DNA of 64,000 nucleotides, taken from NCBI GenBank assembly GCA_903860975.1, contig CAIOSI010000041.1, positions 1 to 64,000 of the forward strand. Reading direction: 5' to 3'. This document shows positions 50,788 to 53,656 of the stretch, one piece after another. The first letter of the stretch is position 1, and each line of letters starts with the position of its first letter. The position numbers and the translations under genes were made by a program. The notes under the pieces were generated by a model. It was not told the DNA's origin. It searched no databases and worked only from the letters and a program-made list of their open reading frames with translations. The DNA comes from an uncultured Alphaproteobacteria bacterium. Lineage in GTDB: Bacteria; Pseudomonadota; Alphaproteobacteria; Caulobacterales; Caulobacteraceae.

Positions 50788-52041
50788 ATGTCCGAAGTCT
50801 CCCACATCACGCGCCGAATTACCCAGCCCGAAGCCGACGAAATTTGCGCGAAGCATGAACGGCTGTGGGGCTCCAAACCGAATGGCGCGCGTGCGGTTTT
50901 CGCTTGGGCGGACATTTCGGGTCTTGACCTGTCCGGACGCAATCTTTGCGACGCCGACTTCAGCGGCGCGATGCTGGTCGGCTGCAAGCTGAAAAACGCC
51001 AGGCTCGACAACGCCATCATGTTTGGAGCCGACCTCCAGGACACGGATCTGCGCGGCGCCTCGCTTCGCCGGACCGATCTGCGCGGTGCCTGCCTTCGCA
51101 ATGCGGACCTCACAGGCGCCGACATGTTCGAAGCTGACCTTCGTGAGGGCGTGTTGGCCGCGGCCGACGCCAAATTCGGCTTCCGGCGCATTCAGGCTGG
51201 CGCCTCGCGCGTGGGCGACGCTCAGGGTGCAAAGCTCATCGGTGCCAACCTTGAACGCTCCAAGCTTTCTGGCGTGATCGCCGTCAAGGCTGACTTTACG
51301 GATGCCATCCTGAAGGACGCACGCCTGGTGCGCGCCAACCTCAAGCAGGCCACCCTTAAGGGATGCGACCTTTCCGGGGCAGACCTCTCCGGCGCTGACC
51401 TCGGCGGGGCCGATCTTCGCGACGCAGTGCTGGTAGGCGCAAAGACTCTGCAGTGGAACGTCTCTAACGCCAATATGGCAGGCGCGCTGACCGACAAGCC
51501 CGCCGGTATCGCTGCCGCCGCACTCCCGTACAAGACGATGATCCAGGACCATGCCCGCTGGTGCGAGACGGGCGGTCAGCAGGGGGCACCTTCGGTTTTC
51601 GATGGCGCCGACCTGCGCGCGTTGCAGACAGTGCGTGGCTACAACCTGACAGCGCTATCTGCGAAGGACGCCGTGTTCTACGGCCTTGATATGGAGGGCG
51701 TGCAACTGCAAGGCGCGCACCTTGAAAATACCGACCTACGCAACTGCAATCTACGACGCGCGGACCTGCGCGGCGCCAAACTCGCCGGCGCGAAACTTTC
51801 GGGCTCCGATCTGCGCCAAGCCCAGATGGGGCCGCTCCTCCTCGGCGCTGATCGCGTGCTGCCTTGCGATTTGCGCAAAGCCGAACTGAAGGGCGCAGAC
51901 CTCAGCGGCGCCGATGTCCGTCAGGCGCTGTTCAACGACTGCGACGTTAGCCGGGCAAATTTCACGGGCGCTTTTCTAAACCAGGCTAATTTCACCGGGG
52001 TCCTGCGCCAAGGCACCCGAGGCCTCGACAACATCATCTGA
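50788..52041 (+). CDS. Pentapeptide-repeat protein
   Basis: A 417-residue protein whose core is A(D/N)LxG-type repeats: two blocks, about residues 44-215 (WADISGLDLSGRNLCDADFS, ADLQDTDLRGASLRRTDLRG) and about 300-410 (VQLQGAHLENTDLRNCNLRR, CDLRKAELKGADLSGADVRQ), split by a non-repeat insert of roughly 50-60 residues (AALPYKTMIQDHARWCETGG). Each block would form a right-handed quadrilateral beta-helix. Some such proteins mimic DNA and protect gyrase (Qnr), but most have unknown roles. No signal peptide; a lone cistron followed by a long hairpin. Confidence 0.92.
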   Translation: MSEVSHITRRITQPEADEICAKHERLWGSKPNGARAVFAWADISGLDLSGRNLCDADFSGAMLVGCKLKNARLDNAIMFGADLQDTDLRGASLRRTDLRGACLRNADLTGADMFEADLREGVLAAADAKFGFRRIQAGASRVGDAQGAKLIGANLERSKLSGVIAVKADFTDAILKDARLVRANLKQATLKGCDLSGADLSGADLGGADLRDAVLVGAKTLQWNVSNANMAGALTDKPAGIAAAALPYKTMIQDHARWCETGGQQGAPSVFDGADLRALQTVRGYNLTALSAKDAVFYGLDMEGVQLQGAHLENTDLRNCNLRRADLRGAKLAGAKLSGSDLRQAQMGPLLLGADRVLPCDLRKAELKGADLSGADVRQALFNDCDVSRANFTGAFLNQANFTGVLRQGTRGLDNII

Positions 52042-52107: not shown

Positions 52108-52560
52108 CTATGCCGCCTTCTCGGCTTCGATCAGGGTCGGCTGAGCTGTGGCGATCTCTATGCGGCGCGGCTTCAGAGCTTCGGGCAGTTCGCGCTTGAG
52201 CGCGACCGAGAGCAGGCCGTCAGCCAATGCGGCTTCGGTCACCAATACGTAGTCGGCGAGTTGGAATTTCCGTTCGAAATTACGTTTCGCCAAGCCCTGG
52301 TGCAGGAAGCGACGTGGCTCGTCGTTGGCAGTCCTACGACCGGTCACCGTCAGTAGGTTTTCCTTAACTTCGATGTTCAGCTCTTCAGGGCGAAAGCCAG
52401 CAACGGCGATCTCGATGCGATAGGCGTTCTCGTCGGTGCGCTCGATGTTGTAAGGCGGATAGCCGCTTGCGCTATCTACGGCGGCGGAATCCAGCAGGTC
52501 AGCCAAGCGGTCAAAGCCGACCACTGAGCGATAGAGGGGGGAAAAGTCGATCGTACGCAT
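52108..52560 (-). CDS. Small heat shock protein, Hsp20/IbpA family
   Basis: A 150-residue ATP-independent holdase. MRTIDFSPLYRSVVGFDRLA is the typical N-terminus in alphaproteobacteria; the alpha-crystallin domain is about 35-125 (YNIERTDENAYRIEIAVAGF, RPEELNIEVKENLLTVTGRR, FLHQGLAKRNFERKFQLADY, GLLSVALKRELPEALKPRRI), and a C-terminal I-x-I/V-like tail follows. It keeps aggregating proteins refoldable during heat shock. Upstream are a sigma-32-like promoter and a hairpin that traps the ribosome-binding site like a ROSE thermometer. Confidence 0.96.
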   Translation of the reverse strand: MRTIDFSPLYRSVVGFDRLADLLDSAAVDSASGYPPYNIERTDENAYRIEIAVAGFRPEELNIEVKENLLTVTGRRTANDEPRRFLHQGLAKRNFERKFQLADYVLVTEAALADGLLSVALKRELPEALKPRRIEIATAQPTLIEAEKAA

Positions 52561-52569
52561 CGTTCACAT

Positions 52570-52587
52570 CCTTCTTTCAAAGCAAGG
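52570..52587 (-). promoter_or_regulatory. ROSE-like RNA thermometer hairpin on the hsp20 ribosome-binding site
   Basis: On the transcript, CCUUGCUUUGAAAGAAGG folds with CCUU paired to AAGG, a bulged G, then CUU paired to AAG, loop UGA. The AAGG part is the Shine-Dalgarno of hsp20, and UUGCU opposite it with one bulged G is the conserved ROSE core. The hairpin ends nine bases before the ATG. Melting at high temperature would free the ribosome-binding site. Confidence 0.65.
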
Positions 52588-52675
52588 TTGCGGTTCATAT
52601 GTCCGCCATTGCGAGCCTGTCGGCCTCGCGGTGGCGTCCAGAAGGCCCGGACATCCAGCGCCTCCAGCCTATGAG

Positions 52676-52701
52676 GTAGGCGTGCAAATTTATGGATCAA
52701 G
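52676..52701 (-). promoter_or_regulatory. Candidate sigma-32 promoter of hsp20
   Basis: On the minus strand CTTG(A), 17 bases, CCTAC(CT), close to the alphaproteobacterial heat-shock consensus (CTTGAA...CYTATNT). It gives a leader of about 105 bases before hsp20, long enough for a multi-hairpin ROSE leader. Confidence 0.55.
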
Positions 52702-52789
52702 ACCTTGTAACGTCGCTGCCTTTGACCGGATTGAGCCCCCGCGCTAGGCCTTACGCCCAACATCAGACCGTGTGGCGTGTTGAGGTGGC

Positions 52790-53656
52790 ATGGCGAATCC
52801 GCACCCGAATTTTGCACGACGCGGCTTGCTTTTAGGCGCTGCGGCGCTGAGCGCATGCTCCGGTCGACCCAAGGCTTTCGGGACGCCAAGGACCTTAGAC
52901 GCCGCCGTAAACGGGGCGTGGCGAGCGCCCGCCGATCGGGTCCGCGATCGCTGGCGTCACCCCCTTGAAACCCTCCGATTTTGGGGGCTCAAGCCTGGCG
53001 AGGCCGTGGTCGAATTCTGGCCAGGCGCGGGCTGGTATACCGATATCATTGCGCCGTTCCTCGCCGCGACCGGTGGCAGGTTCTACGCCGCCGACCTTGA
53101 CCCTTCCGACGCGGAGGGTCGCGAGATGGTCGAGGCCTACCGCCGCAGACTGCATGAAAATCCAGAGCTCTACGGCAAGCCGCAACTGACCGCGTTTAGC
53201 GCCGCCAGCGGGTCTGTCGCGCCGGCTGGTTCCGTCGACCTGGCTCTCTTCCTGCGCAACATTCATAACTGGATGGCGGCGGGCTTGGCGGAGAAGGCAT
53301 TCAGTGAGGCCTTTGCGGCGCTGAAACCCGGCGGAGTTTTAGGCGTCGAGGAGCATCGTGCCGACCCCGCCGGCATGCCCGACGTCATGGCTTCGTCCGG
53401 CTACGTGCCGCAGGCTTACGTGGTGCAGCTGGCAAAAGAAGCGGGGTTCACGCTGGCTGCGGCGAGCGAGGTCAATGCCAATCCGAAAGATACGCGGGAC
53501 TACCCCTTCGGGGTCTGGACCCTGCCACCCGTTCGCCGGTCATCGCCGCCAGGACAGCGCGACGATCCGTCGTTTGACCACACCACGTACGACATCATTG
53601 GTGAAAGTGATCGAATGACACTCAAGTTCGTCAAGTCTGGTCTACCCCATGCCTAG
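52790..53656 (+). CDS. Exported methyltransferase-fold lipoprotein, Tat-like signal
   Basis: A 288-residue paralogue of the exported methyltransferase at 7.2-7.95 kb. The N-terminus ARRGLLLGAAALSACSG has twin arginines and a lipobox (L-S-A-C), so it may be a Tat-exported lipoprotein. The domain: LETLRFWGLKPGEAVVEFWP with PGAGWYTDIIAPFL (motif I), RFYAADLDPSD, LFLRNIHNWMAAGLAEKAFS and AALKPGGVLGVEEHRADP. A short Pro-rich part and HTTYDIIGESDRMTLKFV end it. GAGGTGG lies before the ATG. It diverges from hsp20. Enzymatic activity outside the cytoplasm is doubtful because SAM is not there. Confidence 0.82.
   Translation: MANPHPNFARRGLLLGAAALSACSGRPKAFGTPRTLDAAVNGAWRAPADRVRDRWRHPLETLRFWGLKPGEAVVEFWPGAGWYTDIIAPFLAATGGRFYAADLDPSDAEGREMVEAYRRRLHENPELYGKPQLTAFSAASGSVAPAGSVDLALFLRNIHNWMAAGLAEKAFSEAFAALKPGGVLGVEEHRADPAGMPDVMASSGYVPQAYVVQLAKEAGFTLAAASEVNANPKDTRDYPFGVWTLPPVRRSSPPGQRDDPSFDHTTYDIIGESDRMTLKFVKSGLPHA

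Follow-up and report, generated by a model that had tools for sequence, protein, structure and literature searches.

A probable ROSE-type RNA thermometer in the leader of an hsp20 gene with a sigma-32-type promoter in a Phenylobacterium-like bacterium

The hsp20 gene, its promoter and its leader

The window, that is the whole stretch of 64,000 nucleotides that was analyzed, carries on its minus strand an hsp20 gene that encodes a small heat-shock protein of 150 amino acids and begins with the ATG at 52560-52558 (Table 1). A Pfam search identified the product as a genuine HSP20 protein (PF00011); the query for this search and for the orthologue search began at 52557, without the initiator methionine, and leader positions were set with the full protein from 52560. 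The nearest named relatives, among the best 80 of 455, were mostly Phenylobacterium, and the host is therefore Phenylobacterium-like. On the downstream side lies a gene for a pentapeptide-repeat protein (window 50788-52041, plus strand, 417 aa, Pfam 212 bits), and because this neighbor is convergent with hsp20, hsp20 is apparently transcribed alone. A divergent 288-aa open reading frame (window 52790-53656, plus strand) without a Pfam match at E ≤ 0.001 lies upstream of the hsp20 promoter. Similar letters (FWGLQPGQTVVE.. versus FWGLKPGEAVVE..) were found in locus L117, in a longer open reading frame on the opposite strand (L117:563-2284, minus strand) that overlaps the L117 hsp20 gene; judged from these letters, the divergent neighbor of hsp20 may be conserved. 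Matches to the suhB/mmgR sRNA family were observed at or just past the end of hsp20 in L108 (1968-2041), L112 (1941-2020) and L055 (2043-2119), with 31.6, 24.5 and 20.8 bits against a threshold of 41; the L108 alignment, the only one viewed, shows a hairpin followed by a U run and is maybe a plain terminator. In L060 a long inverted repeat (2037-2162) downstream of hsp20 gave sub-threshold matches to plant microRNA precursors.

Promoters recognized by sigma-32 (RpoH) follow a consensus of CTTGAA-N-CCCATNT-like boxes. Analysis of the region upstream of hsp20 revealed CTTGA and CCTAC boxes at 52701-52676 of the minus strand, with a gap of 16 nt between them. The earlier note on this DNA had described the same two boxes, with a 17-nt spacer and no strand named; the boxes stand and the spacer is corrected. 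This promoter lies at -141 relative to the hsp20 start and scores 10/11 against CTTGAA-N-CCYAnnT, and transcription would start at about 52668-52670. When 85 distinct orthologous leaders were compared, all 85 carried CTTGAA-N15/16-CCYAnnT at -134 to -146 from the ATG with a score of at least 9/11 (11/11 in 67, 10 in 16 and 9 in 2), the spacer being 15 nt in 73 and 16 nt in 12. In 850 mononucleotide shuffles, a score of 9 was reached by 3.4% and a score of 10 by 0.5%. No sigma-70-type promoter was identified in 52400-52850, and no terminator-like site was found. The hsp20 promoter fits the sigma-32 consensus, and its transcription would be expected to depend on this factor.

The leader of about 110 nt ends with CCGCAACCTTGCTTTGAAAGAAGGATGTGAACG directly before the ATG, and the 18 bases quoted earlier (CCTTGCTTTGAAAGAAGG) are exact at 52587-52570 of the minus strand. 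Folding of the leader revealed three hairpins. The last of them, hairpin III, is the one described in the earlier note, with a Shine-Dalgarno AAGG paired to CCUU, a bulged G and a UUGCU core; these letters proved exact, and the pairing was recovered in the minimum-energy fold at each of five temperatures between 20 and 45 °C. The UUGCU motif occupies 52585-52581, with the bulged G at 52583, and six other leaders gave the same geometry when segments of them were folded. Two further hairpins that the note did not contain, I and II, precede hairpin III and are conserved; in window letters, the 3' arm of hairpin I opposite GGAGGC[G]CUGG is CCGGGCCUUC. The pattern TTGCTTN{1,9}AAGAAGG occurred at two places in the 3.83-Mb genome, the hsp20 leader and L162; the latter lies antisense inside a CoA-transferase gene and was taken as a chance match.

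Table 1. Positions of the hsp20 gene and of its promoter and leader features in the window
Feature	Position	Strand	Basis
hsp20	52108..52560	minus	Pfam HSP20, 69.2 bits; equivalents of IbpA Y34, R93, R97 and K98 by alignment
Sigma-32-type promoter, CTTGAT-N15-CCTACCT	52674..52701	minus	sequence and conservation in 85/85 leaders
Hairpin I, GGAGGC[G]CUGG-AUGU-CCGG-GCCUUC, bulged G 52659	52641..52665	minus	RNAalifold, 74 leaders
Hairpin II, lower stem CGCCA/UGGCG and upper stem GCGAG[G]CC-GACA-GG-CUCGC, bulged G 52624	52600..52640	minus	own-leader fold and consensus
Hairpin III (putative thermosensor hairpin), CGCA-A-CCUU[G]CUU-UGA-AAG-AAGG-A-UGUG	52565..52592	minus	own and consensus folds, 74 leaders
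Shine-Dalgarno AAGGA, 8 nt before the start codon, all but the last A paired with CCUU	52569..52573	minus	sequence and fold

Conservation, covariation and spread of the leader hairpins

To build the comparison, L002 was set aside from 112 loci as the other hsp20 gene, and 85 leaders distinct in their last 100 nt were retained. Alignment A1 comprises 74 of these; L015, L026, L041, L059, L068, L071, L074, L083, L084, L103 and L109 were omitted by eye as near-duplicates. The set contains the closest orthologues only (the best 80 of 455, plus 30 loci), so conservation is judged here on close relatives. All 85 leaders carried TTGCT, 23-30 nt before the start codon. Analysis of the 74 leaders by RNAalifold with RIBOSUM scoring yielded the three hairpins, with 91.4% of 2501 cells able to pair and double changes in 17 of the 35 pairs. 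Double-change cells numbered 142, compared with 49.9 ± 6.0 in shuffles, none of 500 of which reached 142; because the leader sequences are related, the shuffles overstate this significance. When partners were slid by 1-3 columns as a control, 33-53% of cells paired; this control retains the relatedness of the sequences, yet the structure it is compared with was derived from the same 74-leader alignment. We also counted 243 G-U cells versus 67 A-C cells, the column pair 29/38 alone contributing 62 of the 243, and this excess points to an RNA of the minus strand and not to a DNA operator.

Covariation was found mostly in hairpins I and II. Hairpin I had 99.1% of its cells paired and double changes in 4/10 pairs, and hairpin II (consensus helices 2 and 3) had double changes in 11/14 pairs. 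Double changes in hairpin III were confined to the lower stem (pairs 106/137 and 108/135, 7 cells), and its core pairs (columns 111-118 with 126-132) showed none inside Caulobacteraceae. The core varied on one side, from U-A to U-G at columns 114/129 in 11/74 leaders, a change that restores the canonical ROSE wobble. The anti-Shine-Dalgarno strand CCUUGCUU in columns 111-118 was 95-100% conserved, compared with 47-77% identity in columns 102-105 just before hairpin III. The earlier note had looked to orthologous leaders for covariation between UUGCU and AAGG; inside Caulobacteraceae these columns hardly vary and none could show, and between distant leaders compensated flanking pairs were found in seven segment folds.

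These segment folds, computed at 30 °C for the terminal 36-45 nt of each of the seven leaders, displayed one bulged-G plan over the Shine-Dalgarno sequence, in which the flanking pairs differ and yet still pair; the comparison was made by fold, without statistics. The window segment formed CCUU[G]CUU/AAGAAGG, that of the second hsp20 gene of the genome formed GAGUC[G]CUU/AAGGACUC and those of L118 and L119 (family f29, outside Caulobacteraceae) formed CACAUU[G]CUU/GAGGAUGUG, and a bulged-G hairpin over the Shine-Dalgarno sequence was likewise obtained for L113, L117 and E. coli ibpA. When minimum-energy folds of whole leaders were computed, the bulged-G hairpin was retained in the window (30 and 42 °C), in the second hsp20 leader of the same genome (30 °C) and in L119, and the Shine-Dalgarno sequence was paired elsewhere in L113, E. 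coli ibpA and L118.

Over the 74 leaders the bulged G was invariant or nearly so in each of the three hairpins: 74/74 in hairpin I, 62 of 64 letters with 10 gaps in hairpin II, and 74/74 in hairpin III. In the alignments of both the first and the second hsp20 leader, the bulged Gs were the most conserved unpaired columns (≤20% gaps). In hairpin II the neighboring pair 63/77 changed on both sides in 20 sequences and the bulged G stayed. Segment folds of single sequences placed a bulged G on the 5' arm in 74, 55 and 70 of 74 leaders for hairpins I, II and III, respectively, the count for hairpin III requiring the G of TTGCT. The second hsp20 leader had the bulged G in 30/30 sequences in each of its two hairpins. 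In E. coli ibpA, hairpin II had a bulged G in the leader fold, and that of hairpin III was present in the ROSE_2 consensus and the segment fold and absent from the whole-leader fold. In the consensus of RF00435 the bulge occurs in hairpins I and III and is missing from hairpin II, which argues against a universal rule. The tip of hairpin I in the E. coli K-12 ibpA leader (L124:4417-4522, minus strand) reads [G]CC-UGAU-GG, and the same letters occur in hairpin II of L004.

To examine specificity, a covariance model (R1) was built from alignment A1. At E ≤ 10, R1 found a single place in its own genome, the hsp20 leader, with 94.4 bits. Matches were obtained in 234/299 sampled Caulobacteraceae genomes and in 204/268 of the complete, clean ones; the 65/299 without a match are weak evidence of absence because strict filters were used. 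Manual comparison of six genomes (G247, G205, G292, G181, G166 and G202) showed that the match ran into the hsp20 start. Of 289 sampled alpha-proteobacterial genomes four matched: this one, another member of its family and two that belong to a different family, f29; both f29 matches lay directly before an HSP20 gene, and the model had been built without f29.

The genome carries a second hsp20 gene, followed by a DUF1150 (LarA-type) gene, with its leader at L002:1277-1383 (G000:C14:43155-43261). This leader contains a two-hairpin ROSE-like element with GAGUC[G]CUU/AAGGACUC. Across 30 such leaders 40 double-change cells were counted, compared with 10.8 ± 3.4 in shuffles (0/500 reached this number), and the 30 proteins kept Y34, R93 and R97 and had S, T or N at position 98. 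A covariance model of this leader (R2) matched 18/200 genomes of the order under strict filters. When R2 was run on nine first-hsp20 loci, L113, L117-L119 and E. coli, the leaders of L117 and L060 were recovered at E 0.002 and 0.008, as was a place off the leader in L020, also at 0.008. A second R2 match in the own genome (L156, 22.4 bits) lies antisense inside a flagellar rod/hook gene and was taken as chance. R1 gave no match on ten second-hsp20 leaders or on the E. coli ibpA leader, and the two own leaders were therefore kept apart as sequence-structure families. In PMC10665427, whose main text did not yield the word "thermometer", the second small heat-shock gene of Caulobacter crescentus is placed under sigma-32 for its transcription and under Lon for its proteolysis; if functional, the second hsp20 leader would add a translational heat switch to this sigma-32/Lon-controlled system.

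Temperature response and competing explanations

Very probably, the leader serves as a ROSE-type RNA thermometer for an hsp20 mRNA whose transcription is driven by sigma-32. Heat shock would raise RpoH activity and with it the output of the promoter at 52701-52674. At low temperature the leader, about 110 nt long, would fold into its three hairpins, the last of which would bury AAGGA, the Shine-Dalgarno sequence, in a stem that the bulged G within UUGCU weakens; warming would loosen hairpin III and give access to the 30S subunit, and Hsp20 would be made mainly when needed. Opening of the leader by heat is the most likely behavior, and hsp20 would then be controlled at the level of translation as well. 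Comparative evidence upheld the combination of a sigma-32-type promoter and a ROSE-type leader that had been proposed earlier.

Temperature dependence was examined in folding models. Opening of the Shine-Dalgarno AAGGA in the window leader cost 5.85 kcal/mol at 30 °C and 4.82 at 42 °C, and in a 50-nt piece with hairpin III it cost 5.23 and 4.41 kcal/mol, respectively. The corresponding values for the E. coli ibpA leader were 1.63 kcal/mol at 30 °C and 1.83 at 42 °C, for a 4-nt AGGA versus the 5-nt site of the window. In the nearest-neighbor model, AAGG was still paired at 45 °C. Folding over 20-50 °C, including the 30 and 42 °C of the check that had been proposed with the original reading, did not predict melting of the leader; the E. 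coli ibpA leader, a known thermometer, gave no temperature trend either, and folding energies are therefore non-discriminating as a test of thermosensing. In these models the window hairpin III looks stiffer than that of E. coli ibpA, which is mildly against an easy switch.

The leader might instead be mainly a docking site for Hsp20, a possibility that we regard as unlikely and that may coexist with a thermometer. Free Hsp20 would bind the hairpins and block its own translation, and aggregated proteins would titrate it off, so that the leader would report aggregation and temperature would act indirectly. In E. coli, IbpA binds its own 5' UTR via R93 and represses translation, and self-repression has been suggested for alpha-proteobacteria also, according to PMC10474464. 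The window Hsp20 has equivalents of Y34, R93, R97 and K98 of E. coli IbpA, and among 84 distinct orthologues position 34 was Y in 83 and W in 1, positions 93 and 97 were each R in 83 with 1 gap, and position 98 was R in 66, K in 16 and Q in 1 with 1 gap. The conservation of Y34, R93 and R97 is consistent with self-repression by Hsp20, but something other than self-repression could account for keeping R93. The bulged Gs point both ways, since hairpins I and II keep theirs though they lie off the Shine-Dalgarno sequence in the consensus fold, and the one over the Shine-Dalgarno sequence is already explained by thermosensing. In a speculative extension, which we consider unlikely, ROSE leaders would be built by repeating the bulged-G hairpin (an unpaired 5'-arm G before C-Y). 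The upstream copies would then offer a binding platform whose most likely partner is the small heat-shock protein, via its R93 patch, and the leader would integrate temperature and aggregate load. The conserved bulged Gs of the upstream hairpins are in any case a point worth specialist attention.

It is improbable that the hairpins only stabilize or protect the mRNA, or pace RNase attack, with control exerted through sigma-32 transcription alone. The strong conservation of the promoter and the lack of opening at 42 °C in the folding model would suit such an arrangement, but it leaves unexplained both the sharp conservation of the anti-Shine-Dalgarno strand next to the variable columns before hairpin III and the bulged G opposite the Shine-Dalgarno sequence in the segment folds of seven leaders. 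That a leader peptide, an attenuator or a DNA operator palindrome lies behind the conservation is hardly credible. A mechanical 137-aa open reading frame (52476-52889, minus strand) does cross the leader and the stems are inverted repeats; however, the gap between CTTGCT and AAGAAGG ranges from 4 to 9 nt and, over 112 loci with duplicates and L002 counted, the motif is spread across the three reading frames set by the start codon (69, 30 and 13 loci), so that no frame is kept. An attenuator is countered by the failure to find a terminator-like site, and an operator by G-U cells far in excess of A-C cells. On the grounds of frame and of this G-U excess, the leader-peptide and operator readings were rejected.

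Relation of the leader to known ROSE elements

The window was searched with all Rfam families at their gathering scores, and no family matched; with the ROSE families at E ≤ 10, no match was obtained around the leader. The search with the ROSE and ROSE_2 models that the earlier note had recommended thus returned nothing for the window leader, whereas the E. coli ibpA leader, used as a positive control, scored 100.4 bits with ROSE_2. RF00435 passed its threshold in one of 20 relatives, the genus-mate G262 (48.7 bits), at the leader of a further hsp20 gene (L113:1501-1598, minus strand), and did not match in 14 control genomes, Caulobacter vibrioides among them. R1 matched the L113 leader over its full length with 15.7 bits (E 0.029). 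An all-Rfam scan was then applied to 18 loci, comprising L002, L113 and 16 orthologous leaders (L117 and 15 others). Of the 15, L098 and L086 aligned with ROSE_3 at 22 bits and the other 13 had no ROSE match; the L098 alignment with ROSE_3 (RF02523, E 0.008, below the gathering score of 43) was in register residue by residue. The L117 leader (hsp20 start 1634) aligned in register with ROSE_2 at 24.5 bits (E 0.0022, gathering score 65), the highest that any ROSE model gave among the scanned orthologous leaders, compared with gathering scores of 43-65. L002 had no ROSE match, even when its leader was scanned alone. Current Rfam ROSE models therefore miss the window leader, and gathering was reached in 0/16 orthologous leaders scanned. 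Because Rfam ROSE gives no match, membership rests on architecture, covariation and the sub-threshold matches of some relatives, and on this sequence evidence we class the leader with the ROSE-like thermometers as the literature defines them, outside Rfam RF00435, RF01832 and RF02523.

Other thermometer types were compared. In a fourU thermometer a run of four Us pairs with a Shine-Dalgarno AGGA, and this type was ruled out since the partner of AAGG in the window is CCUU. ROSE-G, described in PMC12857270 with CUGCU and opposed bulged Gs on both strands, was ruled out as well, the window motif being UUGCU with a single bulged G. As described in PMC3669281, PMC11342760 and PMC10474464, ROSE-like elements usually lie in the 5' UTR of a small heat-shock gene and also occur at other genes; they carry U(U/C)GCU in the 3'-proximal hairpin, with imperfect Shine-Dalgarno pairing and a bulged G, and on warming the Shine-Dalgarno sequence is freed and translation goes up. 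Two to four hairpins and 60 to over 100 nt are given in PMC10474464. The leader studied here belongs to an HSP20 gene whose 5' UTR would include this stretch, has the motif with its bulged G, and comprises three covarying hairpins in about 110 nt.

A ROSE element in a Caulobacterales-like genome had been called worth testing in the earlier note; it is no surprise for the group, since PMC3669281 already names Caulobacter crescentus as a carrier of classical elements and mentions ROSE predictions for it, citing Waldminghaus 2005 among others. The predicted C. crescentus element comes from the same bacterial family, belongs to the same element class and is probably the same leader as that of the window. 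A survey of C. crescentus 5' UTRs (PMC4117421) searched Rfam and reported four riboswitches, and "thermometer" was not found in its main text; in PMC5760092 small heat-shock terms occur only in one line of the reference list. Our analysis adds a covariation-backed thermometer definition in a family with a good laboratory model, Caulobacter crescentus, and the conserved bulged Gs and covarying stems of the 74 leaders indicate which bases to change.

Comparison with the described families revealed the same outline with differences in detail. Like ROSE (RF00435), the window leader precedes hsp20 and has several hairpins, the last with UU[G]CU over the Shine-Dalgarno sequence, and the first hairpin of the RF00435 consensus also has a bulged G before CC. 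In RF00435, however, hairpin II is a plain stem where the window has a bulged G, and UUGCU faces AGGA with a U-G pair, whereas in the window it faces AGAA with Watson-Crick pairs throughout. ROSE_2 (RF01832, E. coli ibpA) shares three hairpins and, in the Rfam consensus, a UC[G]CU hairpin over the Shine-Dalgarno sequence; among the scanned loci only L117 matches it, below gathering, and R1 misses the E. coli leader. Hairpin II of L098 aligns with the first hairpin of ROSE_3 (RF02523), in which a bulged G stands before CCG, but relatives reach 22 bits against a gathering score of 43. The Pseudomonas ibpA ROSE-like element, as presented in PMC3669281, has a sigma-32 promoter and a UYGCU hairpin over the Shine-Dalgarno sequence in common with the window and differs in having two hairpins in 61-62 nt, compared with three in about 110 nt. 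Taken together, the leader is ordinary in kind, well supported in structure and anticipated for Caulobacter in PMC3669281, and thermosensing is what would be expected of it.
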